A stretch of 14,863 nt of DNA from Candidatus Tayloriibacteriota bacterium (GTDB lineage Bacteria; Patescibacteriota; Minisyncoccia; Phycocordibacterales; JAKAEA01). A model generated the notes under the pieces. The model did no database searches, had not been told where the DNA came from, and saw nothing but the letters and a program-made list of their open reading frames with translations. Every line of letters begins with the position of its first letter. Position 1 is the first letter of the stretch. The stretch spans positions 1 through 14,863 of the forward strand of contig JARIGY010000049.1 in assembly GCA_029288535.1 (NCBI GenBank). Direction: 5' to 3'. Positions 650 to 14,863 of the stretch are shown one piece after another. The position numbers were made by a program, and so were the translations under genes.

Positions 650-659
650 TCAATTTAAA

Positions 660-704
660 ATATCACCCCGGCCTGCGGCCACCCCTCTTAATTTAAGAGG
701 GGAA
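660..704 (-). repeat. Palindromic repeat, copy A (intergenic)
   Basis: Read on the minus strand this is a hairpin CCCCTCTTAA/TTAAGAGGGG, then TGGCCG-CAGGCC, then GGGGTGATA. It matches copy B at 6762-6804 almost base for base; A lacks one base in the second hairpin. It fills the space between lepA and the 36-aa reverse gene, and its hairpin could also act as a weak transcription barrier. It belongs with copies B-E, all of which lie inside tsaD. Confidence 0.85.
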
Positions 705-5588: not shown

Positions 5589-5753
5589 TCAATGCGTCAT
5601 TTTAAAGCCAAGCCAGATGCCGACGATGGCGCCGGCCGCGCTTAAAATGATCGATGAAAAAGACAGCATGCCTGCGCCCCACAAAAGCGGGATAAGGCTG
5701 CCGGCCGTAGAGCCGACGATCATGCCGATCCAGATTACTGATTTTGATTCCAT
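5589..5753 (-). CDS. Small two-helix membrane protein (54 aa)
   Basis: An unrecognised microprotein on the minus strand. It begins MESKSVIWIGMIVGSTAGSL, has two hydrophobic helices at about 6-29 and 34-51 rich in glycine and alanine, and ends KMTH. The pattern resembles small glycine-zipper membrane proteins in general; I cannot assign a family. An extended -10 (TGCTATACT, 5760-5768) lies 6 bases before the ATG, giving a predicted leaderless mRNA. It occupies the gap between valS and tsaD, is on the same strand as both, and ends 38 bases before the valS start. Composition and promoter support a real gene. Confidence 0.72.
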   Translation of the reverse strand: MESKSVIWIGMIVGSTAGSLIPLLWGAGMLSFSSIILSAAGAIVGIWLGFKMTH

Positions 5754-5759
5754 GGCCTA

Positions 5760-5768
5760 AGTATAGCA
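5760..5768 (-). promoter_or_regulatory. Extended -10 promoter of the 54-aa gene
   Basis: TGCTATACT on the minus strand, 6 bases from the ATG at 5753 and only a few bases past the tsaD stop codon. Same box class as the valS and 1659-1691 promoters. Confidence 0.55.
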
Positions 5769-5772
5769 AATA

Positions 5773-7035
5773 TCAGAGTGAAAGGTTGCCCTGGGCTTTG
5801 ATATTTTCGGACGGTTTCGCGCCCGCGACAATGTGTAGATAGCCGGCAGCCGCGATCATCACTGCGTTGTCGGTCGAATCTTTTATTTCCGGAATAAGCA
5901 ATTGCACATCGCCGTATTCTTCAATTGATTTCTTAAATTCGCGGCGGATGAAACTGTTGGCAACGACACCGCCGCCCAGGATCAATGTTTTGATGCCGAA
6001 TTCTTCGATGGCGTTTCTGGTTTTTGTAATCAGGACTTCGGTAACGGCAGTTTCAAATTCTAATGCAAATTCTTTTTTTGTCTCATGGGTTATCTCCCTT
6101 TGAAGGGAGTGGCCGGAGGCCGAGGGATGTCCTTTGAGGGCGTAAAGCACCGCTGTTTTGATACCCGAAAAAGAAAAATCATAATCGGGAGTGCGGAGCA
6201 TCGGGCGGGGCAAGACCACCCCTGCCTTCGGCATCCCCTCCTTTCCAAGGAGGGGAGCTTCGCGCCGTGCTTCTTCCGCAAGTTTTGAGATCTCTGGCCC
6301 GCCCGGGTATGGCAGCGAAAGCAGACGCGCAACTTTGTCGAACGCTTCGCCGACCGCGTCGTCGCGGGTTTTGCCGATCACTTTATAATCGAGCCAATTT
6401 TTTATGAGTACTAGCTCGGTGTGTCCGCCGGAAATCAAAAGCGCCAAGGCAGGAAAAACAACCTGTGCTTTCGGCGTCACTTCATTTCCAAGCAGGGGAG
6501 AAACGATATGCCCTTCCATGTGGTTGGTCGCAATAACCGGAATGTCCCAAGCCAGGCCGAGAGCTTGGGCGAAATTGATACCGACCCAAAGTGCGGGTTC
6601 GAGGCCTGGGCCGGCAGTGACGGCGATGCGGTCGATGTCTGGTTTTTCTATCGACTCGATGATTTCTTTTACGACTTCAAAAAGTCCGGCGTCGCGGGCA
6701 AGGAGTTTTTCTAATTTTTCTGAAAGTTCTAAAGATATCACCCCTGCTCGAGTACTCGCTTCCCCTCTTAAATTAAGAGGGGTGGCCGGCAGGCCGGGGT
6801 GATATTTTGTCATCCCCGCATCACCCAATGCTTTTTTTAAAAGCATTCCGATATTTTTCGTATGCTCCCGCTTGGCAAGCATGGGAAACACGCCACCGAA
6901 CTCTTCATGCAGTTTTGCCTGCGAATACAGCGCGTCGCCGAGCACTTTGAAAGAAGGGTTTTCCAGACCGCCGGTAGCTTCGACTATGCACACTGCCGTT
7001 TCATCGCAGCTGGTTTCGATGCCGAGGATTTTCAC
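5773..7035 (-). CDS. tsaD: tRNA N6-threonylcarbamoyladenosine transferase TsaD, enlarged by in-frame repeats
   Basis: TsaD transfers the threonylcarbamoyl group to A37 of ANN-decoding tRNAs, working with TsaB/TsaE. Core motifs present: ILGIETSCDETAV at 3-15, the metal-binding HMEGH at 172-176, ISGGHTELVL at 201-210, DDAVGEAFDKVARLL at 225-239, FSFSGIKTAV at 287-296, LGGGVVANSF at 353-362 and STDNAVMIAAAGY at 387-399. At 420 aa it is about 80 longer than E. coli TsaD (337 aa). About 70 of the extra residues map to four palindromic repeats read in frame: residues 77-101, 178-193, 260-274 and 302-315. None hits a catalytic motif, so the protein may still work. The start is GTG, overlapping the upstream TGA as GTGA (4 bases), which indicates translational coupling to the gene at 7032-7466. 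Confidence 0.95.
   Translation of the reverse strand: MKILGIETSCDETAVCIVEATGGLENPSFKVLGDALYSQAKLHEEFGGVFPMLAKREHTKNIGMLLKKALGDAGMTKYHPGLPATPLNLRGEASTRAGVISLELSEKLEKLLARDAGLFEVVKEIIESIEKPDIDRIAVTAGPGLEPALWVGINFAQALGLAWDIPVIATNHMEGHIVSPLLGNEVTPKAQVVFPALALLISGGHTELVLIKNWLDYKVIGKTRDDAVGEAFDKVARLLSLPYPGGPEISKLAEEARREAPLLGKEGMPKAGVVLPRPMLRTPDYDFSFSGIKTAVLYALKGHPSASGHSLQREITHETKKEFALEFETAVTEVLITKTRNAIEEFGIKTLILGGGVVANSFIRREFKKSIEEYGDVQLLIPEIKDSTDNAVMIAAAGYLHIVAGAKPSENIKAQGNLSL
6093..6132 (+). repeat. Palindromic repeat, copy C (inside tsaD)
   Basis: CTCCCTTTGAAGGGAG hairpin followed by TGGCCGGAGGCC and GAGGGATGTCC: the family layout of hairpin, GGCC hairpin and G-rich tail. Antisense to tsaD, it is read as residues 302-315 (GHPSASGHSLQREI). 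Confidence 0.8.
6214..6258 (-). repeat. Palindromic repeat, copy D (inside tsaD)
   Basis: On the minus strand, CCCCTCCTTGGAAAGGAGGGG, then ATGCCGAAGGCA, then GGGGTGGTC. In the sense orientation it encodes APLLGKEGMPKAGVV at residues 260-274, which matches the peptide from copy E. Confidence 0.8.
6457..6505 (-). repeat. Palindromic repeat, copy E (degenerate, inside tsaD)
   Basis: A diverged copy of D: CTCCCCTGCTTGGAAATGAAG, then GACGCCGAAAGCA, then CAGGTTGTT on the minus strand. The hairpin is partly decayed. It encodes SPLLGNEVTPKAQVVFP (about residues 179-195), clearly related to the copy D peptide, just after HMEGH. Confidence 0.7.
6734..6806 (+). repeat. Palindromic repeat, copy B (full-length, inside tsaD)
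   Basis: The longest copy. It has terminal inverted repeats GATATCACCCC (6734-6744) and GGGGTGATATT (6796-6806), an inner palindrome CGAGTACTCG, the hairpin CCCCTCTTAA/TTAAGAGGGG (6762-6782) and TGGCCGGCAGGCC. Antisense to tsaD, it encodes residues 77-101 (HPGLPATPLNLRGEAS...). Its right 43 bases match copy A almost exactly. Confidence 0.88.
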
Positions 7036-7466
7036 TTCTTAAATTTTTGGATATCTAACAAATCGTTTCGGAACGCTACTACATCAGGTTCCATTTCTAC
7101 CTGGACAACATCAACCTCATGTATTGTGCGTGATTTTAAGACGCTGAAATAGCGCACTTTCTTGCCTTTCTTTTTTGCAATTTTTATTTCAGATAAAACC
7201 CCATCGCTTATTGCTCCGAATACCCGTATTTCATCGCATTTTCTTACGCAGTTGTTATTGGCTTCGCGAACACTGCCCCTGTCTATGGAATCCAAAAGAA
7301 AATAATCAAAGATCATGAAAGGGTTCAAAGGCATACCGCCCTGTTCGAGAACAAACTTTGAAATGAACATTCTAAAATAAAAAAGATGCTTGGACATTGC
7401 CGTATAAACAAGCGGCATGTCTTTATTCAACTCCAAGGCTTTGTGTTTAAAAATTCTCTTGCTCAT
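7032..7466 (-). CDS. Nucleoside 2-deoxyribosyltransferase-like fold protein (DUF4406/DUF7768-like)
   Basis: A 144-aa protein. The pattern LVYTAMSKH at 19-27, GGMPLNPFMIF at 43-53, REANNNCVRKCDEIRVFG at 67-84, ISDGVLSEIKIAKKKGKKV at 86-104 and RYF is the layout of the nucleoside 2-deoxyribosyltransferase-like (Rossmann-like) superfamily. Glu93 in SDGVLSEI sits where the catalytic Glu of that superfamily falls. The named enzymes swap bases on deoxyribose. Whether this one does so, hydrolyses an N-glycosidic bond or only binds nucleotides is not known. Its TGA overlaps the GTG start of tsaD (GTGA), so the two are co-translated. It begins 18 bases after tRNA-Val on the same strand and may be transcribed with the tRNAs. 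No Shine-Dalgarno sequence is seen. Confidence 0.7.
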   Translation of the reverse strand: MSKRIFKHKALELNKDMPLVYTAMSKHLFYFRMFISKFVLEQGGMPLNPFMIFDYFLLDSIDRGSVREANNNCVRKCDEIRVFGAISDGVLSEIKIAKKKGKKVRYFSVLKSRTIHEVDVVQVEMEPDVVAFRNDLLDIQKFKK

Positions 7467-7484
7467 ATTAAGAATTCAATTCTG

Positions 7485-7557
7485 TGGGCGATAGAGGACT
7501 CGAACCTCTGGCATCAACAACGTCAATGTTGCGCTCTACCAACTGAGCTAATCGCCC
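7485..7557 (-). tRNA. tRNA-Val(GAC)
   Basis: Cloverleaf on the minus strand: acceptor GGGCGAT/ATCGCCC, D arm GCTC/GAGC, anticodon stem CAACA/TGTTG with loop TTGACGT (anticodon GAC), T loop TTCGAGT, discriminator A. CCA is not encoded. A TAGATT -10-like box lies 8 bases upstream of the 5' end, but the tRNA could also be read through from tRNA-Ser. Confidence 0.95.
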
Positions 7558-7596
7558 GTACCACTAATCTACCAGAAACCCCATGTAATTTCCAGT

Positions 7597-7664
7597 ATAG
7601 CTCTCCTTCGCGACTTACTTGCGGACTGTGTCCGCCGTAGCTCGCTTCGGCGAGCGAAGGCGGA
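7597..7664. repeat. GC-rich palindromic element abutting tRNA-Ser
   Basis: A compound palindrome: TCCGCC (7631-7636) pairs with GGCGGA (7659-7664), enclosing CTCGC-TTCG-GCGAG. A second hairpin GCGGAC-TGT-GTCCGC (7621-7635) overlaps its left arm, and the outer CTTCGC is complementary to GCGAAG on the far side. It differs in sequence from the A-E family. Its last bases (GGA) are the first bases of the tRNA-Ser acceptor stem, so the element directly continues the tRNA 3' end. Confidence 0.7.
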
Positions 7665-7747
7665 GAGAGAGGGATTTGAACCCTCGAGGAGCTTTCACCC
7701 CTGCCGCGTTTCGAGTGCGGTGCCTTCAACCACTCAGCCATCTCTCC
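7661..7747 (-). tRNA. tRNA-Ser(CGA)
   Basis: A class II tRNA on the minus strand: acceptor GGAGAGA/TCTCTCC, D region TGGCTGAGTGGTTGAAGGCA, anticodon loop CTCGAAA (anticodon CGA), long variable arm, T loop TTCAAAT, discriminator G. The anticodon stem CCGCA/CGCGG has one A-C mismatch at its loop end. CCA is not encoded. The 3' end runs straight into a palindromic repeat. Confidence 0.94.
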
Positions 7748-7753
7748 AATGTT

Positions 7754-7782
7754 AATCTACTGAGAGCATTACCACCTCTCAA
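7754..7782 (-). promoter_or_regulatory. Promoter of tRNA-Ser
   Basis: On the minus strand, TTGAGA (7777-7782), 17 bases, TAGATT (7754-7759), 6 bases before the mature tRNA 5' end. It faces away from the tRNA-Glu promoter. Confidence 0.5.
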
Positions 7783-7803
7783 TTACAGTGAGCTTAGCAC
7801 TTT

Positions 7804-7832
7804 TTGCCTTTTTCTCAAATTCCTGCTATATT
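7804..7832 (+). promoter_or_regulatory. Promoter of tRNA-Glu
   Basis: TTGCCT (7804-7809), 17 bases, extended -10 TGCTATATT (7824-7832). Transcription would start near 7839. The short leader contains the hairpin ACTTCTA-TTTA-TAGAAGT, ending just before the tRNA. Confidence 0.65.
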
Positions 7833-7859
7833 TTGAGCACTTCTATTTATAGAAGTCCA

Positions 7860-7933
7860 GGCCTCATCGTCTAACCTGGTTAGGACACGAGCTTTTCAAG
7901 CTTGTAATCCGGGTTCAAATCCCGGTGAGGTCA
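7860..7933 (+). tRNA. tRNA-Glu(TTC)
   Basis: Acceptor GGCCTCA/TGAGGTC, D arm with TCTAACCTGGTTAGGA, anticodon stem CGAGC/GCTTG with loop TTTTCAA (anticodon TTC), T arm CCGGG-TTCAAAT-CCCGG, discriminator A. CCA is not encoded (the genome reads CCC). The 3' half is also the coding end of the serine recombinase on the opposite strand, so this gene marks the left edge of the mobile element. Confidence 0.95.
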
Positions 7934-7936
7934 CCC
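7915..7936. other. Probable attachment site in the tRNA-Glu 3' end
   Basis: Base composition and gene content change at the 3' end of tRNA-Glu, and the recombinase reading frame ends inside it. This is the usual arrangement at one end of an integrated element. I found no second copy of the tRNA 3' end in the window, so the crossover position is inferred. Serine recombinases need only a very short shared core, so absence of a long repeat does not exclude an end inside the window. Confidence 0.5.
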
Positions 7937-9591
7937 ACAGCATTTAATCGGTTTTCAAAAGGTATGAATCCTTTTTTGACCTTATAATTCAACGTATTTT
8001 CGGAAAATAAAAGTTCTGAAAAAATAATACGAATAATTTTCTCTTTTTCATAGGAGTTGGCAAAAGACCAATATACCGCAACATTTTCCAGCAGTTCTGA
8101 AAGTTTTATAACGTCCTTTATAACTTCATGCATTGCAGTGTCTGAAGCCTGCTCGGCATTCTGTAGGGAAGTGAGTTCAGTATTCAGCCTTGTTTCTTCC
8201 TCAATATAAGCCTCTGGTGAGTACACGCCGGCTTTAATAAGTGTGAGACGGTTGTTTCGCAAATATGATAAGTCTTCTCGCAATTTCTTTTTCCTACGAT
8301 CATCTTCTTCAATCCTGCCATTTCGCTTCTCCTCAAAAAGAACAATGTCAGTTTGGGTTCGGGCCTCAATCTCGGCCAACTCATCTTTTGTAAAAACAAG
8401 TTTCGCAATCAGACCACCAACTTTTTCTTCAAAGAAATCGCTATTAAAATTCTTTTTTAGATTGGGACAACCAGTCACGCAACGTGAAAAGTAGTAATTA
8501 ATATCTTTCTTTATATAAGGAGTATAAATACGATGGCAAAACTCGCAACGGGCAATGCCGCGATAAGGCAGATCAATTTTCTCGGTGTAATGAACACTTG
8601 TTTTTCTTTTTGTTAATTGCCGCTGAACGTCATTAAAAATTTCCGGCAAAACCAAAGGCGCATGACTGATACTTTGAACATACTGACCGTCATTTCCGAA
8701 TGTTTTTCCCGTATAGAAGAGGTTGGTAAGTATTTTGTGAACCATGTTAGCAGTTACGGGTCGGGATATCTTTTCAATGACGATTTCTTCGCTTTCTTCA
8801 GCCAGCATTTCCGCCTCAGTTCTTCGACGCCGCATTGGCACTGTAGTAAGTCCTTGTTTATTCGCCCATCGGGCAAGGTCTTCAAGGCTCCAGTCGCCAG
8901 TAGCGCAGAGATCGAACATCTTTTTGATTATAGGAGCCCGAATTGGGTCAAGCGGCTTATGTTCCATATTCCCTTCGTTCAAATAACCTATTGGCGCTCG
9001 GTGGGTGACAATACCGCGCTCTCGGAGGTTTCGTGTATTAATACTGACTTTCTCACTTGTTACCCGTGAATGGTGCTCGGCAAACATACCGTCAATGTCC
9101 ATGTGAAGTGCTCCCGAACTGGTTTTTTCGTATTTTGCATAGACAAATCTCACATCAATACCTTTCCGCATTAATTTACGGACTAGGGTATCATCTCCTT
9201 TATTCCTGCTGATTCTATCCCAGCAAAGCACAATAATACCTCTAAAAAGACCGAGGCTTAAAAACTGAACAAGTTGCTGAAACTTTGGCCGACTGATCCG
9301 GTATTGTACTAAGCCATCATCAGAGATCGTCACCTCGTTATCTTCTTTGAAGCCTGAATGTTTTTCAGAGATAATACCATCAACACAAAAACTTTTTATG
9401 GTTATGGGTGCAATTTTTATTTTTTCTCGAGAAGAAAATTTTGTGGTCTCAGCTTTTTGATATGAAAGGGAATTTTTTTGGTTTTCGGGTTCGTCAGTAC
9501 TCTTCCGGTTATATGCCAAATAACAGTCACGATATTTACCGTTCTGAATATCCTCCAGTAATTTCTTTTCGGTTGTTTCGGTAATGGACAT
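7915..9591 (-). CDS. Large serine recombinase (site-specific integrase)
   Basis: A 558-aa protein with the large serine recombinase layout. The resolvase catalytic domain has nucleophile Ser31 in YNRKSTDE and the WDRISRNKGD motif at about 124-133. A recombinase domain starts near RAPIGYLN (198-205). A zinc ribbon follows with C349-x2-C352 and C371-x3-C375. A long charged coiled-coil region at about 400-470 and a C-terminal tail complete it. It should integrate and excise the element through a covalent phosphoserine intermediate. The start ATG overlaps the preceding stop as TAATG. The last residues GDLTGI and the stop are antisense to the tRNA-Glu T arm and acceptor stem, so the C-terminus was probably set by integration. 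Confidence 0.95.
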   Translation of the reverse strand: MSITETTEKKLLEDIQNGKYRDCYLAYNRKSTDEPENQKNSLSYQKAETTKFSSREKIKIAPITIKSFCVDGIISEKHSGFKEDNEVTISDDGLVQYRISRPKFQQLVQFLSLGLFRGIIVLCWDRISRNKGDDTLVRKLMRKGIDVRFVYAKYEKTSSGALHMDIDGMFAEHHSRVTSEKVSINTRNLRERGIVTHRAPIGYLNEGNMEHKPLDPIRAPIIKKMFDLCATGDWSLEDLARWANKQGLTTVPMRRRRTEAEMLAEESEEIVIEKISRPVTANMVHKILTNLFYTGKTFGNDGQYVQSISHAPLVLPEIFNDVQRQLTKRKTSVHYTEKIDLPYRGIARCEFCHRIYTPYIKKDINYYFSRCVTGCPNLKKNFNSDFFEEKVGGLIAKLVFTKDELAEIEARTQTDIVLFEEKRNGRIEEDDRRKKKLREDLSYLRNNRLTLIKAGVYSPEAYIEEETRLNTELTSLQNAEQASDTAMHEVIKDVIKLSELLENVAVYWSFANSYEKEKIIRIIFSELLFSENTLNYKVKKGFIPFENRLNAVGDLTGI

Positions 9592-9785
9592 TAAAATTTA
9601 ATTGTATCTAGTTTTTTTAGCTGCCCATCAATTATACTATAACCTTCGGCAATGAGACGCTCTTGAATTTCTCTCAAAACATCACCTAGGTCGCTTAGGC
9701 TGATGATGGTTTCTTCGGGGAAGGCGTATTGCGGAATAGTCTCATAATCTAAGTCATCGTTAGCTTGCAGTATCTCCGCCAGCAT
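9591..9785 (-). CDS. Small acidic protein coupled to the recombinase (64 aa)
   Basis: Not recognised. The protein is acidic and mostly helical by composition (LSDLGDVLREIQERLIAEGY), with a basic end (KKLDTIKF) and no cysteine pair or membrane segment. Its stop overlaps the recombinase start (TAATG at 9591), and its own ATG overlaps the stop of the zinc-ribbon gene (TAATG at 9785). Translation therefore probably passes from one gene to the next by reinitiation. Small proteins next to serine integrases are sometimes recombination directionality factors; that role here is only a guess from position. Confidence 0.7.
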   Translation of the reverse strand: MLAEILQANDDLDYETIPQYAFPEETIISLSDLGDVLREIQERLIAEGYSIIDGQLKKLDTIKF

Positions 9786-10309
9786 TACTTTTGGGCCGGT
9801 TCATCTGGTATGTCTTTTTTAGTAATGCCTATTTGCTTGATAAGCATGTATTTATCTTCACTCGAAAAGTAAGGTTTTCGTATTAAGCGGGAAATACTTC
9901 TTGTCTTTCGAGAGGGTGGCACATAGCCAAGCTTGCAGCATTTCCTGCACGCCGCTGATTCGTACGTTCTATAACGGTAAAGGTACTTCACTCGGCTGTC
10001 GCAGTAAATACAGATAAAGTAGAAGATAAATCCTCGATGCTGTCCCAAATTTGATGCAACGAAATCAACTTTTTGAGGACTCCAATAAAAGAAATCATTT
10101 AAACTTTCAAGAGGCGAGCAAATTCTGTTCTCAGGTGTATTTAAGAGGTTTTTTAAATGGATTGCGCCGCTGAAGTGTTGAATTTTAAGTTTTATTCCGT
10201 GCCGCTTGCTGTAACTCAGCACAAAAGTTTGTACATAGTCTGTAATATCAATTCTCCGAATCTTATCCATAAAATCTTTGTTGCTGTGTCTATAGGTGGG
10301 CATAATCAC
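9785..10309 (-). CDS. Zinc-ribbon protein of the element (174 aa)
   Basis: Unassigned protein with a zinc-ribbon motif C100-x2-C103 ... C121-x2-C124 (ICIYCDSRVKYLYRYR and ACRKCCKLGY), followed by a basic stretch (PPSRKTRSISRLIRKP). This fits nucleic-acid binding. Similar C-x2-C...C-R-x-C-x-x-L-x-Y ribbons occur in small proteins beside recombinases and transposases (general recollection, not a search). The longest frame starts with GTG at 10309; the ATG at 10303 (MPTYRHSN) is equally likely. It starts 17 bases after the ATPase stop and is TAATG-coupled to the 64-aa gene. It is probably part of the recombination or DNA-processing module. Confidence 0.75.
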   Translation of the reverse strand: MIMPTYRHSNKDFMDKIRRIDITDYVQTFVLSYSKRHGIKLKIQHFSGAIHLKNLLNTPENRICSPLESLNDFFYWSPQKVDFVASNLGQHRGFIFYFICIYCDSRVKYLYRYRTYESAACRKCCKLGYVPPSRKTRSISRLIRKPYFSSEDKYMLIKQIGITKKDIPDEPAQK

Positions 10310-10326
10310 TATGAATTTCTAATAAT

Positions 10327-11688
10327 TTAGTCTGTAGGTAAATGTTGTAGCAAAGTGCTTTCCTTTGGTTCTGTATCGTCTGGAACGTTCACAATGTGCG
10401 CTTGTTCACCTCGAATATCTGCGTCAGAGATGCCAAAGCGTTCTTTCCAGAAATCTAGGCGGCCATGGTTCTTCTCGAGTCCCAGTACGAAGCCGCGCCT
10501 TGTTTTATAGGGCTTTAGTTGAAGTTTGGTTCTCAAATACCAACCGATTTTACGTGCTGTAAGCTTATCATCAAAATCCAACGCGTCATGGTTCACAGAG
10601 TCAGAAATCTCTCCGACGGTCACCTCTTTCTTTTGGGTGTCATGCTCAAACTTTAAAATAGCGAAGATAATATCCGACTCTCTGGAAAAACCTCGGTCGG
10701 TGATGAGCTCGACGTTGTATTTCTGGATGAACTCTTTGAGGGACTGTTTCATCTCAGGAGATTCAATAATCGAGAGAAGCGGGATGATTATCTGATGCAG
10801 GCGAGGATGGATGCCTTTAATCGGTTTTTCGTCGAACACAAGCGGCTTATAGTAGTTCTTGAGCCGCCACATGAGAAGCTTGTTCCTTATCTTCAGAGCT
10901 TCAGTGTAGAACTCGTCGCTCAGCCGCTTCGGTATATCTTCCCGAAGGGTGCCGCGGCCCATTTCTTCTATCAAAAATCGGCTCTCCAATGCCTTATCCT
11001 TGAAGGTCTCTCTAGTCGCAATTATCTTCGGTGAGAAGACGCTATAGGCTTTTACCTCGAATACGCCTTTTCCTTCGGATCGGAGTACTGACATGCCCTT
11101 CTGATAGCCTGTGTTCAGTATCTTTACGATGTCGTCGCCCATGTCTGATGATTTGAAGTCAGCTTCGTCGAGAATAAGCGTTCCGCCGAGGTCGTTCAAA
11201 ATGCGAAAAATAGGGGAGGGAGTCGTTGCTCCACCAGTGAATATGGGGCGGTAGCATACAGAACCTACGGCTTGCAGGAGGCGAGATTTGCCACTGCCGA
11301 AGTCCCCGAGAGCACGAAGATAGGGTAATTCATGGAAGCGGTCATAGACCCAACTGAAAAGCACATAATAGGTCGCTATCTGCTCGAACATCGGCGATAT
11401 ATCGAGGTATTTGTGAATATGGGCCTGTATTTCGGCTATGAGCTCTTCATCAGTTCCGTAATCGCTTGCTGTTGAAGGAAGGAGCACCACACCCTTACTC
11501 ACGATGTCATTTTGACCGTCGAGCGGGAAAAATTCCTCCTTCTCTGTCTTGATGAAGTCGGCATACTGCACCGTGCCATCCTTAAAGATAGCGAACTGGG
11601 TCTGTTGTCCGCTAGGATTATAGATGGTTTCTGCTAGTTGGTCTGCAAGCACGAGAGAGGCCTTTCGATTCTTTTTATTATTTTCCAT
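10327..11688 (-). CDS. AAA+ ATPase of mobile-element replication type (DUF3631/helicase-like)
   Basis: A 453-aa P-loop ATPase. Walker A GDFGSGKS is at residues 128-135, Walker B TLILDEAD at 170-177, and an arginine-finger-like ESRFLIEEMGRG at 235-246. The ATPase core spans about 100-270. The C-terminal third contains a winged-helix-like stretch (SRESDIIFAILKFEH ... KIGWYLRTKLQLKP), and the tail is acidic. Related ATPases sit in the replication modules of plasmids, phages and integrated elements as helicases or primase-helicase parts. No primase active site is present in this protein. It is the largest non-recombinase gene of the element and probably drives its replication. It starts 28 bases after the DUF5659-like gene, same strand. 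Confidence 0.75.
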   Translation of the reverse strand: MENNKKNRKASLVLADQLAETIYNPSGQQTQFAIFKDGTVQYADFIKTEKEEFFPLDGQNDIVSKGVVLLPSTASDYGTDEELIAEIQAHIHKYLDISPMFEQIATYYVLFSWVYDRFHELPYLRALGDFGSGKSRLLQAVGSVCYRPIFTGGATTPSPIFRILNDLGGTLILDEADFKSSDMGDDIVKILNTGYQKGMSVLRSEGKGVFEVKAYSVFSPKIIATRETFKDKALESRFLIEEMGRGTLREDIPKRLSDEFYTEALKIRNKLLMWRLKNYYKPLVFDEKPIKGIHPRLHQIIIPLLSIIESPEMKQSLKEFIQKYNVELITDRGFSRESDIIFAILKFEHDTQKKEVTVGEISDSVNHDALDFDDKLTARKIGWYLRTKLQLKPYKTRRGFVLGLEKNHGRLDFWKERFGISDADIRGEQAHIVNVPDDTEPKESTLLQHLPTD

Positions 11689-11716
11689 GTGTATCTAATT
11701 CAATATTATTAATATT

Positions 11717-11974
11717 TTAATCGTTCAATCTGTCGAGTAGTTCTCTTCGAGCCTGTTCATATTTATGTACTTCCACAAGCAATCTTTCGTCATCTTTTTC
11801 TCCGTAGCGATATAGCCATACCAATTCCTCTAATTCATCAGTTTTCACAAAAACAAACTCTTTCTGCTTGTTAGTTATGGAATTGACACCACTGATTTGA
11901 TATTCTTTCGCATACAGAAAAACTGCTTGATTTAGACTCGATGTCCTCAAATATTTATCTGCATTTATTTTCAT
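11717..11974 (-). CDS. DUF5659-like small protein (85 aa)
   Basis: Residues DKYLRTSSLNQAVFLYAKEY then FVFVKTDELEELVWLYRYGE follow the DUF5659 pattern: a (K/R)TS(D/S)L-x-x-A start, a central beta strand FVF, and a C-terminal helix ending ARRELLDRL. The family has no known function and is found in mobile elements and phages of many bacteria, including CPR. It starts only 18 bases past the terminator of the upstream 241-aa gene, so it needs its own promoter; an AT-rich TAATAAA-like stretch immediately upstream is the only candidate. The family call is from memory of the pattern. Confidence 0.65.
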   Translation of the reverse strand: MKINADKYLRTSSLNQAVFLYAKEYQISGVNSITNKQKEFVFVKTDELEELVWLYRYGEKDDERLLVEVHKYEQARRELLDRLND

Positions 11975-11991
11975 AAAATTTTTATTAAATT

Positions 11992-12012
11992 AAAAAACCC
12001 GCGTGTTGCGGG
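11992..12012 (-). terminator. Rho-independent terminator of the 241-aa gene
   Basis: On the minus strand, CCCGC-AACAC-GCGGG followed by six T. It lies 37 bases past the 241-aa stop and 18 bases before the next ATG, so it separates that gene from the ATPase-recombinase block. Confidence 0.85.
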
Positions 12013-12048
12013 CTGCGCCAGTAGCTTACCAAAACCATTTTTTCTTGT

Positions 12049-12774
12049 TTAGGTGCTATTTGGGGGTGATTTGGGTTCGATTGGGGTTTTATTCATTACA
12101 AGTGTAAGATTACCCCTATTGTTAACAAGATTTTTGGAATTTAGGCCAATCTTTGATCTCAGGCTTTTTGCGAGTGCGTTGATTTTAGCGGTCTCAAGAG
12201 TCTTTTTTGTTTTATCTATAGCTTCGCCATCCTCATAGAATCCACACTGAACTAGCACGTCGTACCTGTACATTTTTTTGTTTGGTTTTTTATACAGAAA
12301 CTTAAATACTTTATACGCAGAACTACCGTCTTTGAGTTTAAAATTCTCGGTACCATTTCTGCCGATACCAGTCGTTTCGTTATAGTATAAGGCGCTCGCT
12401 TCCTTTTCACCGTTACCGACACTGCCTTTTAAAATCCCAATGAAGTGTTGAATACCTTTAAAGTTCTTAATCTCATAGCTTATTCGTTTTTGGGCCGAGT
12501 CTTTTGCGATGACATCAAAAAGTATTGTTTCTTTCTCTAAACCTTTGTTGGGGTTATGGAGTGAATAGTCACTGGTAATTTTTAGTAACCCTTTTGCTTC
12601 AAAACTCCGCATTAATTCGGAAAGTTCCATGTAATCGATGCCGAACTTGTATGGAACCACATAGTTGGAGCGCTTGAGAACCTCAAAAGACCTTTCTTGT
12701 TTGGGGTACATCTTCTCTTTTGCAAGTACTTCATTGAGTACCTGAATTGCTATCGCAGCAGTGTCTTCTTTCAT
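12049..12774 (-). CDS. Hypothetical protein with C-terminal winged-helix-like region (241 aa)
   Basis: Not confidently recognised. Residues about 25-80 contain a helix-turn-helix-like stretch (IDYMELSELMRSFEAKGLLKI). The middle is mixed beta (KRISYEIKNFKGIQHFIGIL). The C-terminal 85 residues (SSAYKVFKFLYKKPNKKMYRYDVL ... INALAKSLRSKIGLNSKNLVNNRGNLTLVMN) look like a winged helix with a two-strand wing: helices, a basic recognition helix, then RGNLTLVMN. A role as transcription or replication regulator of the element is plausible. It is monocistronic, with a terminator behind it and a divergent promoter region in front that carries an imperfect palindrome, so self-regulation is possible. This is inference. 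Confidence 0.65.
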   Translation of the reverse strand: MKEDTAAIAIQVLNEVLAKEKMYPKQERSFEVLKRSNYVVPYKFGIDYMELSELMRSFEAKGLLKITSDYSLHNPNKGLEKETILFDVIAKDSAQKRISYEIKNFKGIQHFIGILKGSVGNGEKEASALYYNETTGIGRNGTENFKLKDGSSAYKVFKFLYKKPNKKMYRYDVLVQCGFYEDGEAIDKTKKTLETAKINALAKSLRSKIGLNSKNLVNNRGNLTLVMNKTPIEPKSPPNST

Positions 12775-12792
12775 GTGAATCTCAATTTGAAT

Positions 12793-12820
12793 GTATAATC
12801 TGTGAACGTGTTAACGTTGC
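12793..12820. promoter_or_regulatory. Divergent promoter region with operator-like palindrome
   Basis: TATAAT (12794-12799) reads as a -10 on the plus strand and ATTATA on the minus strand, 19-20 bases from the 241-aa start. Beside it is the palindrome AACGT-GTTA-ACGTT (12805-12818), where a repressor could block the minus-strand -35 region. No good -35 is visible on either strand, so confidence is limited. Confidence 0.4.
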
Positions 12821-12901
12821 GAACATCCTAGCATAGATACTCTTGAAATAAAGGCTCGTATATGGCACTATAAGTATACAACTTAATATATAGAATCTAA
12901 A

Positions 12902-13054
12902 CCAGTAGTAATACTGGCATGATGAAAATAAACCTTTCACAGTATCAAGCTCCTCGTCAGAGCACTGTGAAAGGTTGCGTAGGGAAACCTGCGTAGGTGA
13001 CTTCGGTCATCACTGATGAGGAGCTTTATGCTTCCTCGAAAACCTTTCACAATG
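12902..13054 (+). promoter_or_regulatory. Switch-like structured leader RNA at the start of the exported-protein gene
   Basis: Read as RNA, segment A (12931-12943, AACCTTTCACAGT) pairs perfectly with A' (12964-12976). In the loop between them, B (12947-12960) pairs over 14 bases, one of them G-U, with B' (13013-13026), which holds the GAGGAG ribosome-binding site. This is an H-type pseudoknot. Alternatively, A' pairs over 11 bases with A'' (13041-13051). That would close a four-way junction of three hairpins: CGTAGG-GAAA-CCTGCG (12978-12993), GGTGAC-TTCG-GTCATC (12996-13011) and GAGGA/TCCTC (13018-13037). The two folds exclude each other. A further hairpin CCAGTA-GTAA-TACTGG lies at 12902-12917. 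Confidence 0.7.
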
Positions 13055-13579
13055 AAAAAAAGTACATGGAGTTGGATAATTACTTTGGCAGTGATCTTAA
13101 TTGTAGTTGCTTATCAAGTTGGGCAAAGTTCAAATAACCGTCAATCTTCGCCAAGCATTTCGTTAACGCAACCACCCGTGGCATCAAAGGTAGCTCCTGT
13201 GAAATCCAGCAATCCCTCTGCGAATAATGATGAATCAAGGGCTTGTGCACAGCAGACCATGGCTATGGTTAATAGTCTAAATGTTGAAGCCGATAGATTA
13301 CAACAACAGTTCGGTCTTTCGGGTAACATATCAAGCTATCAAAATTATTTTAACACTAAAGAAAATAAATGTTACGCTCTTGTCTTTAGTACATCAAGCT
13401 ATAAAAATACTTTTGGTAGTAGTGAGGATCTGTATGATGTTTATGCAAACCAAAGAATTGCTAATTATTCTCCATCAACCTTGTTTTGTTCTATCAATGG
13501 AGTTACAGGGTGTAAGTACAGTGATTTTAAGTTTGATGTAGATACGAGGTTTCTTTTCACAGCCTCTTGGTCTTGGTAA
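13028..13579 (+). CDS. Exported or membrane-anchored hypothetical protein with conserved cysteines
   Basis: The protein has a basic start, one hydrophobic helix (SWIITLAVILIVVAYQVG), a serine/proline-rich linker, and a C-terminal domain of about 110 residues. In that domain CAQQTMAMVNS, YFNTKENKCYALVFSTSSY, DLYDVYANQRIANY, LFCSINGVTGCKYSDFKF follow a pattern I associate with secreted domains of unknown function in Gram-negative and CPR genomes, with paired cysteines that could form disulfides. It is probably anchored outside the cytoplasm. Three in-frame ATGs exist (13016, 13028, 13052). 13028 is chosen because GAGGAG ends 4 bases before it; 13052 gives the most typical signal anchor but has no ribosome-binding site. 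The GAGGAG lies inside the switchable leader structure, so translation is probably controlled. Confidence 0.75.
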   Translation: MLPRKPFTMKKSTWSWIITLAVILIVVAYQVGQSSNNRQSSPSISLTQPPVASKVAPVKSSNPSANNDESRACAQQTMAMVNSLNVEADRLQQQFGLSGNISSYQNYFNTKENKCYALVFSTSSYKNTFGSSEDLYDVYANQRIANYSPSTLFCSINGVTGCKYSDFKFDVDTRFLFTASWSW

Positions 13580-13594
13580 GTTTTTGGAATCAAA

Positions 13595-13789
13595 ATGGTC
13601 CGATGGATAGATATCCAAGTTTGCACTTCTTGCGGTAACTCCAGATACAAACATGAGATTTCTTTTCATGGAAGATCTGATTTCCAAAGAATAAAAGAAT
13701 TACTGATTGCTATGAATGTCAGATTTAAGAACCGGATAGTATGTTTTGGTAGCGGCTATACCATCGCCAGCTGGAAGGAAGTCACTTAA
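13595..13789 (+). CDS. Possible small cysteine-containing protein (64 aa)
   Basis: A short frame 15 bases after the exported-protein gene. The peptide MVRWIDIQVCTSCGNSRYKH carries a C-x-x-C pair and is followed by a helical stretch (FQRIKELLIAMNVRFKN) and a C-terminal IVCFGSGYTIASW. It could be a small metal-binding protein translated by coupling. There is no ribosome-binding site and I recognise no family, so it may also be chance. Confidence 0.35.
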   Translation: MVRWIDIQVCTSCGNSRYKHEISFHGRSDFQRIKELLIAMNVRFKNRIVCFGSGYTIASWKEVT

Positions 13790-13858
13790 AATCCCTCATT
13801 TTCTGAAAAGACTATTTTAGTTTGGTGCCTATCCCTTCAGAGCAAGTGTTGGTAAGAT

Positions 13859-13889
13859 TTGACATTTTTAGTCGTCGGAGTAGTATAAT
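13859..13889 (+). promoter_or_regulatory. Strong sigma-70-type promoter of a candidate small RNA
   Basis: Consensus TTGACA (13859-13864) and consensus TATAAT (13884-13889), separated by 19 bases, longer than the usual 17. No reading frame of size begins downstream, but a terminator lies about 110 bases on. Confidence 0.6.
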
Positions 13890-13895
13890 AGAATT

Positions 13896-14002
13896 GTTGA
13901 AGAATGTATCATGAATCTAGCGCCTATATGATACACATACACATCATTTGTGATCTTGTTTTGATAAAGAAAACAGGACACACCCCATAAGGGTGATTTT
14001 TT
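13896..14002 (+). ncRNA. Candidate small RNA, about 105 nt
   Basis: Bounded by the TTGACA/TATAAT promoter and a terminator. Three hairpins are visible: TGTATCAT (13905-13912) with ATGATACA (13928-13935), TGTTTT-GATAAAG-AAAACA (about 13958-13976), and the terminator CACCC-CATAA-GGGTG. No start codon with a ribosome-binding site or frame of more than a few codons is seen. It matches no RNA family I can name. Whether it is a regulator of the element, for example antisense control of replication, is not known. Confidence 0.5.
13981..14002 (+). terminator. Rho-independent terminator of the small RNA
   Basis: CACCC-CATAA-GGGTG (13981-13995), A, then six T (13997-14002). Confidence 0.85.
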
Positions 14003-14027
14003 GTTATTTAAAAATTGAAGAGTGGGT

Positions 14028-14147
14028 ACAGGAAGTAAAATGTGAGCTTAGCGGGATTCGAACCCGCACGCCGCGAAGCATTGGTTTTGGAGACCAAGAT
14101 GTCTACCAATTCCATCATAAGCTCAACGACATTGTATTACTTCCTGT
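14028..14147. repeat. Inverted repeat enclosing the CCA-anticodon tRNA
   Basis: ACAGGAAGTAA (14028-14038) and TTACTTCCTGT (14137-14147) are perfect 11-base complements on either side of the tRNA. In the precursor RNA they could form a stem that brings both tRNA ends together for processing, or they could be the ends of an inserted cassette. Confidence 0.65.
14043..14124 (-). tRNA. tRNA with Leu-type body and CCA (Trp) anticodon
   Basis: A complete class II cloverleaf on the minus strand: acceptor GAGCTTA/TAAGCTC, D stem ATG/CAT with loop GAATTGGTAGA (identical to the D loop of E. coli tRNA-Leu(CAG)), anticodon stem TTGGT/ACCAA with loop CTCCAAA, 13-base variable arm (TGCTTCGCGGCGT), T arm GCGGG-TTCGAAT-CCCGC, discriminator A. 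CCA tail not encoded. Anticodon 34-36 is CCA, which reads UGG. A single base change at position 35 separates it from tRNA-Leu(CAA). Gene finders may call it either Trp or Leu. It lies in the mobile element, with no neighbouring tRNA, and has flanking inverted repeats. Confidence 0.85.
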
Positions 14148-14640
14148 GCTCACGCCTCAATTCGAGACGTGAGTTGTATAGCTAGAAACTACACAACTGA
14201 AACTATAGAAGAAACGATCGGTACCGTGAGCTTTGCTTGCGGTACCTTTCGTTTATATCGGCGACAGATTAACTTGCCGCTTGTATCATAATGACAAAGA
14301 AGCAAGGCACAGCCGCCAGTTATAAACTCGTTCATGTGCTTTAATGAACTATTTGTCGTTGTCGCTTGCGATTAGCTTACGCTTGTTATACCGACAAAGC
14401 AAAAACCATTACTTTAACCGACGTTTAGTTCAGGAGTAAGACCAATGGTCTGACGCCTAAACCAAAGTTTAAGGGACTAAGGTTTAGAGTTGAATTACTT
14501 CTTCTCCATTCCTAAGCGCCAGTTAAAATAATGGTTTATGGTTTTTGTTTTTCTGGTACGCTTACATCGGTTGCTGCCTTCCTCGGCATAATTCGTATAC
14601 CCTTAATATACGAAAGCATGATACATATTAACATATTTCT
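14125..14640. other. Gene-free, heavily structured region (possible large non-coding RNA or origin)
   Basis: No plausible gene on either strand. Hairpins in order: CTCACG/CGTGAG (about 14149-14172); AGTTGTATAG/CTACACAACT (14172-14198); GGTACCGTGAGC-TTT-GCTTGCGGTACC (about 14220-14246), flanked by AAACGA/TCGTTT; GTTCAT/ATGAAC (about 14330-14349); TTTGTCG/CGACAAA (about 14352-14398); a long-range stem AAACCATTACTTTAAC (14403-14418) with GTTAAAATAATGGTTT (14522-14537) enclosing AGACC-AAT-GGTCT and CTAAACC/GGTTTAG; and TTCGTATA/TATACGAA (14592-14614). Wobble pairs favour the minus strand for two stems and the plus strand for one, so the transcribed strand is not settled. tmRNA, RNase P and SRP RNA signatures were looked for and not seen. 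Confidence 0.55.
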
Positions 14641-14805
14641 ATGAAGCGTAATCCCCAAGAAACAAATAAGGAACAGTTTTTTAAAATCGTCAATAAGGCT
14701 ATATCCCCGTCAGCACAGCCTCGAAAACAGGCAAAGCGTGGTGGTTATAAAGGAAAGCAAACTGGTTCACATACTCCTGCAAATACTTCTGTGAAACCCA
14801 AGTGA
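14641..14805 (+). CDS. Small basic protein (54 aa)
   Basis: An open frame MKRNPQETNKEQFFKIVNKA..., ending VNKAISPSAQPRKQ, AKRGGYKGKQTGSH, TPANTSVKPK. It has a short amphipathic helix (KEQFFKIVNKA) and then a disordered lysine-, glycine- and serine-rich tail with no hydrophobic segment. This fits a small nucleic-acid- or ribosome-binding protein, but I recognise no family with confidence. There is no Shine-Dalgarno sequence; the TTCGTATA/TATACGAA hairpin lies 26 bases upstream and a terminator 23 bases after the stop, which supports a real transcription unit. Confidence 0.55.
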   Translation: MKRNPQETNKEQFFKIVNKAISPSAQPRKQAKRGGYKGKQTGSHTPANTSVKPK

Positions 14806-14827
14806 TTCACCACTTCGTGTGCATAAC

Positions 14828-14846
14828 GTGGCTTTACCACTTTTTT
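14828..14846 (+). terminator. Probable terminator of the 54-aa basic gene
   Basis: GTGG-CTTTA-CCAC followed by six T. The stem is only 4 bp, so the call is moderate. Confidence 0.5.
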
Positions 14847-14863
14847 CTTATACACTCCAAACT

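Follow-up and report, generated by a model that had tools for sequence, protein, structure and literature searches.

In-frame palindromic elements in tsaD of a patescibacterial genome and DUF559 genes as their candidate partners

The closest described counterparts of the repeats presented here are the palindromic elements of Rickettsia (RPEs) and Wolbachia, short palindromes that lie in frame in unrelated conserved genes as well as between genes, with the host protein kept. Dispersed short hairpins, often in inverted pairs, are also formed by the GTAG and CGTC types of REP; in the available excerpts of the source, the partner gene of the GTAG type is flanked by the element, and the CGTC type is reported without a dedicated transposase (PMC3733652). 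The same excerpts describe RAYT/REP pairs, which set a precedent for short palindromes that are also intragenic, and list REPs inside genes for DNA repair, DnaE, DNA ligase and tRNA enzymes, a gene list that strikingly resembles the one given below (PMC3733652). Among selfish nucleases, the EDxHD class and its role in homing have been described, as far as the accessible part of that source goes (PMC3943268).

The elements found in a Candidatus Tayloriibacteriota genome are like the RPEs in kind, and the parallel drawn between the two in the initial annotation is supported as a working one. They differ in that a candidate partner gene adjoins matching elements here, whereas we know of no partner enzyme reported for RPEs. 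They also occur in another host and measure about 45-80 nt, against the 105-146 bp given for RPEs in the accessible part of the source (PMC2229807). They share with the REPs of the excerpts the dispersed hairpins, the inverted pairs, a candidate partner gene flanked by the element in one of two cases and the copies inside DNA repair and tRNA enzyme genes, but have neither a GTAG head nor a CGTC-AT head, and the candidate partner is a DUF559 gene, not one for a Y1 transposase (PMC3733652). We consider it probable, at roughly 0.7, that the segments within TsaD are non-autonomous relatives of a DUF559-bearing mobile unit. The association with DUF559 goes beyond the initial annotation, and so does the finding that other lineages, too, carry palindromes in these TsaD loops. 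Among the matches listed from a mostly freely accessible literature, represented by titles and the beginnings of abstracts, no link between DUF559 and palindromic repeats is mentioned, and no palindromes in genes of Patescibacteria are described.

Palindromic elements in tsaD and in the rest of the genome

The window, by which the whole analysed stretch of 14,863 nucleotides is meant, contains a 420-aa open reading frame (ORF) that was identified as TsaD and is free of stops across all four palindromic segments. The conserved columns of TsaD are retained in an alignment (A3) of 53 sequences chosen from the TsaD loci at hand, without L072, which has stops. An Rfam search of window positions 5700-7100 gave no match at E up to 1. 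The features, by window position, are these:

5773..7035, minus strand: tsaD, host of elements B to E, encoding tRNA N6-adenosine threonylcarbamoyltransferase (420 aa; PF00814 match, E 2.9e-73; PDB TsaD homologues)
6733..6808, plus strand: element B, family 1, antisense to tsaD; 76-nt unit AGATATCACCCC...GGGGTGATATTTT; peptide KYHPGLPATPLNLRGEASTRAGVI
6087..6133, plus strand: element C, family 2, antisense to tsaD; tail GAGGGATGT; peptide HPSASGHSLQREI; covariance-model match
6203..6257, minus strand: element D, family 3, sense; tail GGGGTGGTC; peptide PLLGKEGMPKAGVV; covariance-model match; kin are E and a copy at position 3259 of contig C19
6453..6500, minus strand: element E, family 3, degenerate, sense; peptide PLLGNEVTPKAQVV; identical to D at 36/47 positions
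657..704, minus strand: element A, family 1, intergenic; BLAST E 2.1e-17 to B

Each element is composed of a pyrimidine-arm hairpin (CCCCTC...GAGGGG type), a second hairpin and an end like GGGGTGAT. The initial annotation had placed palindromic elements in frame in tsaD in both orientations, which agrees with B and C being antisense and D and E sense within one uninterrupted frame, and the repeated insertion over time that it proposed has left signs. Its view of a single layout at different levels of decay had to be given up: B and A, C, and D and E form three families whose stems and tails differ.

All four tsaD segments represent copies of palindromic elements that are dispersed in the genome. 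The 76-nt unit of B recurs in the RecJ gene with 74 of 76 positions identical and unrelated flanks on both sides, and it resembles the ends of one of the two DUF559 genes of the genome, DUF559-1. C and D are assigned by family matches. E, the most doubtful of the four, is kept on the identity with D noted above; when about 150,000 positions in loci of this genome were compared, no clearly unrelated site scored above 26. Complementary ends, ATATCACCCC and GGGGTGATAT, are present in B and in the copies in RecJ and on contig C56. In this the elements recall MITEs, which are likewise short non-autonomous units with complementary ends, but no target-site duplication is visible in the comparison of B with the RecJ copy, and the candidate partner is not a DDE transposase. 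A length of 76 nt is not divisible by three, so reading can have stayed in frame only through a minor gain or loss at the border.

That an element is read in frame carries information chiefly for family 1, in which only one or two of the six frames are open, compared with four in C, four in E and all six in D. It therefore says little for D, C and E, and the 'PLL' of the E peptide is partly ancestral (VSPLI or VSPLL in the two nearest relatives). Both points would suit a reading in which the segments are chance or ancestral residues and not insertions. We give this reading next to no credence: the pattern CCCCTCN{1,12}GAGGGG has 14 copies in the genome against 0 in the reversed control, and for B the near identity with a copy in an unrelated gene led to its rejection.

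Further copies inside and outside genes, which the initial annotation had foreseen, were found both by BLAST with B and by an RNA covariance model, R1. The BLAST search of the genome returned 14 matches, including B itself and overlapping matches on the opposite strand, which merge into seven further places at E < 1e-4 (contigs C3, which is copy A, C11, C56, C69, C75 and, twice, C91). R1, built from 11 copies, detects 24 separate places in the genome of 792 kb (E up to 0.00125), of which 10 were in the training set and 14 outside it. In tsaD it covers 6087-6133 (C), 6210-6257 (D), 6453-6500 (E) and 6760-6808 (B), with scores that hold by construction because these four copies belonged to the training set.

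Eleven of the 24 places are read through in frame within larger ORFs of eight genes, namely those of TsaD (4), Tgt, LigA, RecJ, Dus, LeuRS and DnaE and a 547-aa ORF with a weak likeness to T4SS coupling proteins; ten of these eleven copies lie in clearly identified housekeeping enzymes. As with RPEs, the same element is found in frame in unrelated protein genes, the B unit in TsaD and RecJ being an example. Four places are beside the two DUF559 genes and nine lie between genes or near gene ends; no ORF of at least 80 aa overlaps element A (657-704), and the copies on C36, C79, C92, C99 and C19 overlap only short or upstream reading frames, which are putative. Family 3 consists of D, E and the C19 copy, and a fourth family, with tail GGGGGAGATT, includes the DnaE copy. 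Local alignment scores gave no clear family for the Dus and LeuRS copies. On contig C99 (9131-9865, locus L146) two family-4 elements stand on opposite strands about 640 nt apart; the profile search found no DUF559 match on this contig.

The surroundings of tsaD have features of their own. The GC content of the window is 48-54% before position 7000 and 37-43% after it. Three tRNA genes at 7484-7935 are followed by a serine recombinase gene (7915-9591), three more ORFs tested gave no Pfam match, and the region 7484-14863 looks like a genomic island at a tRNA site. Perfect inverted repeats at 2019-2050 and 1533-1576, with arms of 16 and 18 bp, adjoin tRNA genes and are probably terminators.

Palindromes in the loops of TsaD and in the linkers of other enzymes

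The protein had been described as about 80 residues longer than E. coli TsaD. It is indeed longer than E. coli-type chains (337-343 residues in PDB homologues), but most of the excess belongs to the lineage as a whole: TsaD measures 386 and 392 aa in the two nearest relatives, so the excess over them is only 28-34 residues. Against these two, the gain is +17/+17 residues in the B loop, +4/+4 in the E loop, +8/+8 in the D loop and +9/0 in the C loop. Among 65-66 relatives, a loop at least as long as the one here is found in 5 for B, 46 for E, 11 for D and 11 for C; one TsaD comparison was made without L081, L083 and L084, which are split or partial.

The initial annotation expected clean insertions. 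TsaD as a whole is longer than in the two nearest relatives, but the B loop of the nearest one carries a palindrome of its own. Among the other hosts, comparison with PDB homologues shows distinct additional segments at the element in RecJ and DnaE and a smaller one in Tgt. Clean insertion everywhere was rejected on account of LigA, Dus and LeuRS, in which the element lies in a linker and the length stays close to that of the PDB homologues; some copies thus seem to have replaced linker sequence.

Palindromes recur in the same places in other lineages. The tsaD genes of 66 relatives contain 29 perfect hairpins of at least 8 bp, and 23 of the 29 fall, with 12-nt margins allowed, in the four loops, which make up 17.6% of the length. 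When L018 and L045, which are one genome, are counted once, the figure is 20/25 (p 2.6e-8 for an assumed share of 26%). Hairpins of the form CCCCYYYYYN{1,8}RRRRRGGGG, the one in tsaD included and overlapping variants merged, were counted at 6 places each in genomes G001 and G052, at 28 in the L061 genome and at 5 in the L077 genome, against 0, 0, 0 and 1 in the reversed control. The tsaD of L018 combines the pyrimidine-arm type with a GAGGTC type similar to the palindrome around the Y1 gene of our genome, and the TsaD of Parcubacteria GWA2_47_21 (L054, 5001-6341) has two copies of a third palindrome type, one in the B loop and one in the E loop, each encoding the peptide NSLPAPNRLRQAGKQI. With at least three unrelated palindrome types in them, the TsaD loops take up unrelated palindromes repeatedly.

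This concentration might be thought to indicate that the inserts are kept for a benefit to TsaD, such as regulation or partner binding, and are not merely tolerated. Four of the eleven in-gene copies lie in this one gene. Under uniform placement in a genome assumed to be 90% coding, the probability of this is about 3e-9 for a given gene and, if 700 genes are assumed, 2e-6 over all of them. Other lineages also hold hairpins in the same loops (the 20/25 above). A benefit to TsaD is nevertheless improbable, since the lineages differ in the sequences and families involved, the palindrome types are unrelated to one another, and tolerance of long variable loops is the simpler account. The two nearest relatives have other residues in these loops, and no repeat-free relative with the residues seen here was found among those compared.

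DUF559 genes beside the elements

The genome has two DUF559 genes, free-standing frames of 116 and 124 aa, both beside palindromes. DUF559-1, on contig C91, sits between inverted family-1 elements with their GGGGTGATAT tails inward and is the only one of the two with elements on both sides; DUF559-2, on C65, has two family-2 elements downstream, and no element was found upstream. The elements beside each gene match dispersed copies by family. Copies A and B and those in LigA, Tgt and RecJ have local alignment scores of 63-70 with the near end of DUF559-1 and 39-48 with its far end, compared with 18-40 for the DUF559-2 elements. Element C and a copy on C22 each match one DUF559-2 element (63 and 73) and score at most 23 with DUF559-1; C itself scores 63 and 33 with the two DUF559-2 elements and 14 and 11 with the DUF559-1 ends. 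The TsaD copies B and C belong, in other words, to the families flanking DUF559-1 and DUF559-2, respectively. Neither family 3 nor family 4 has a DUF559 partner in this genome, a situation that would fit older, decaying copies.

A profile of 40 DUF559 sequences matched PDB entry 3hrl (E 9e-33) and the 'mobile intron protein' 3r3p (E 5.9e-6), which we take to be I-Bth0305I; the other PDB matches, at E of 0.04 or more, were taken as chance. Twelve residues are invariant in the 40 sequences, E13, D41, E52, D54 and H58 among them. By its sequence relation to 3r3p and these conserved acidic and His residues, whose roles are presumed, DUF559 belongs with the EDxHD nuclease superfamily. The principle of a selfish nuclease driver would be the same as in the EDxHD homing endonucleases; however, the DUF559 genes here are small and free-standing, and stand beside palindromes, not in an intron. 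No assay in which a DUF559 protein was tried on palindromic DNA of this kind is known to us.

DUF559 ORFs of other phyla are found near such repeats, and this was the lead behind the flank tests. For the class, 40 DUF559 loci were compiled: 29 new loci among the matches listed in one search, and 11 of the 26 matches from another, the remaining 15 being weak (E > 1e-7) and mostly partial. The controls were 30 Y1 loci and 27 of 29 TsaD loci (without L020 and L028). A pyrimidine-arm (Y-arm) hairpin within 350 nt was present on at least one side of 36/40 DUF559 loci, by a criterion written after inspection of the flanks of these same 40 loci, and of 0/30 Y1 and 1/27 TsaD loci. Both sides had one in 25/40, 0/30 and 0/27 loci, respectively, the copies at the 25 DUF559 loci being counted without matching them to dispersed elements, and far windows had one in 7/77, 0/57 and 0/52 cases. 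When every perfect GC-rich hairpin with 9 bp or more was accepted in the same 350 nt, the corresponding figures for DUF559, Y1 and TsaD loci were 31/40, 19/30 and 7/27 on at least one side, 22/40, 6/30 and 1/27 on both sides, and 13/77, 2/57 and 4/52 in far windows.

The same link is seen between whole genomes. At least five copies of CCCCTCN{1,12}GAGGGG occur in 33 of the 57 genomes with DUF559 (a match at E up to 1e-15) and in 16 of the 326 others (383 genomes; odds ratio 26.6, p 1.7e-20), and the reversed pattern reaches five copies in 3/383, none of them among the 57. The link persists within taxonomic families: when labels were shuffled 200,000 times within the 18 families that have both kinds of genome (45 and 91 genomes), the observed value was never attained, and the family mean of the hairpin count was higher with DUF559 in 13/18 families and lower in 4/18.

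By analogy with classical REPs, the elements could be moved by a REP-associated tyrosine (Y1) transposase, and the genome does have one Y1_Tnp match, a 232-aa frame. This sole match (L104, contig C74, 1243-1966) is bounded by inverted copies of another palindrome, TGTAGAGGTC and GACCTCTACA, of which a third copy stands at 913-945; this small genome thus contains another REP-type system, distinct from the first. With these different flanks and no Y-arm hairpin near any of the 30 Y1 loci, the RAYT was rejected as mover of the CCCCTC family, and a Y1 transposase as the agent behind the elements is improbable.

It is also conceivable, if unlikely, that DUF559 is cargo or a hitchhiker, a defence or repair gene that happens to be carried between palindromes which owe their spread to replication slippage, template switching or another enzyme. 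Such a reading would accommodate the lack of any observed transposition event, the 16 hairpin-rich genomes above in which DUF559 has no strong match, the missing partner genes of families 3 and 4 and the one-sided elements of DUF559-2. It accounts less readily for the flank association at 36/40 loci, for the agreement by family between the neighbours of each DUF559 gene and the dispersed copies, and for a link that holds within taxonomic families. The association suggests instead that the nuclease spreads the palindromes.

Outside the class, plasmids were sampled: of 41 records 12 were taken, and one with the domain inside a very large protein was dropped, leaving 11 DUF559 genes from cyanobacteria, Deinococcus, Azospirillum, Sinorhizobium and Sphingomonas. 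Hairpins of the CCCC...GGGG type lie near at least one end in 10/11 by eye and in 5/11 by the fixed Y-arm criterion. In three Deinococcus plasmids (L206, L207 and L214) DUF559 is found at differing positions among hpaB and hpaE genes, always opposite in direction to its neighbours: between a VOC gene and hpaE (with a hypothetical gene), between an oxidoreductase gene and hpaE, and between hpaB and an oxidoreductase gene. A dispersed rhizobial element contains TGGCCGGCAGGCCGG, like B, and Sinorhizobium strains (L233, L237-L240) differ at the same place by a single hairpin of a two-hairpin element, which some have and others lack; two Sinorhizobium plasmid loci compared gave no clean empty site. 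Some rhizobial hairpins end in GGGGACG, and their identification as CGTC REPs was dropped because CGTC stems almost invariably start with AT in the excerpts available (PMC3733652). Overall, neither empty sites nor target-site duplications were found in the comparisons made.

A possible route into essential proteins

If the TsaD segments are indeed relatives of a DUF559-bearing unit, the autonomous form would be one small DUF559 nuclease gene (Vsr/EDxHD type) between inverted copies of the element, as DUF559-1 may exemplify. The nuclease would probably act in trans at element ends or targets, and the element would be copied in during the repair of a break or flap. Copies that keep the frame and lie in surface loops or interdomain linkers could survive purifying selection, which would let them build up in permissive loops of essential proteins; the loops of TsaD are presumably four sites of this kind. 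The encoded peptides may then be a by-product, neutral for the host protein.

A wider reading, for which the scales stand about level, is that DUF559 serves as the nuclease dedicated to mobilising a third large superfamily of REP-like palindromes in bacteria, besides GTAG/RAYT and CGTC, that extends from Patescibacteria to cyanobacteria, Deinococcus and alphaproteobacteria. Homing-like cutting and repair would time and again write new in-frame peptides into loops of essential enzymes, and in Paceibacteria TsaD would be a preferred sink for them. As a domain of unknown function that stands beside palindromes of the dispersed type, DUF559 offers a direct and testable candidate for the mover of the whole superfamily. 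If true, this would give a function to a widespread domain and would explain where new loop sequence in the essential proteins of highly reduced genomes comes from.
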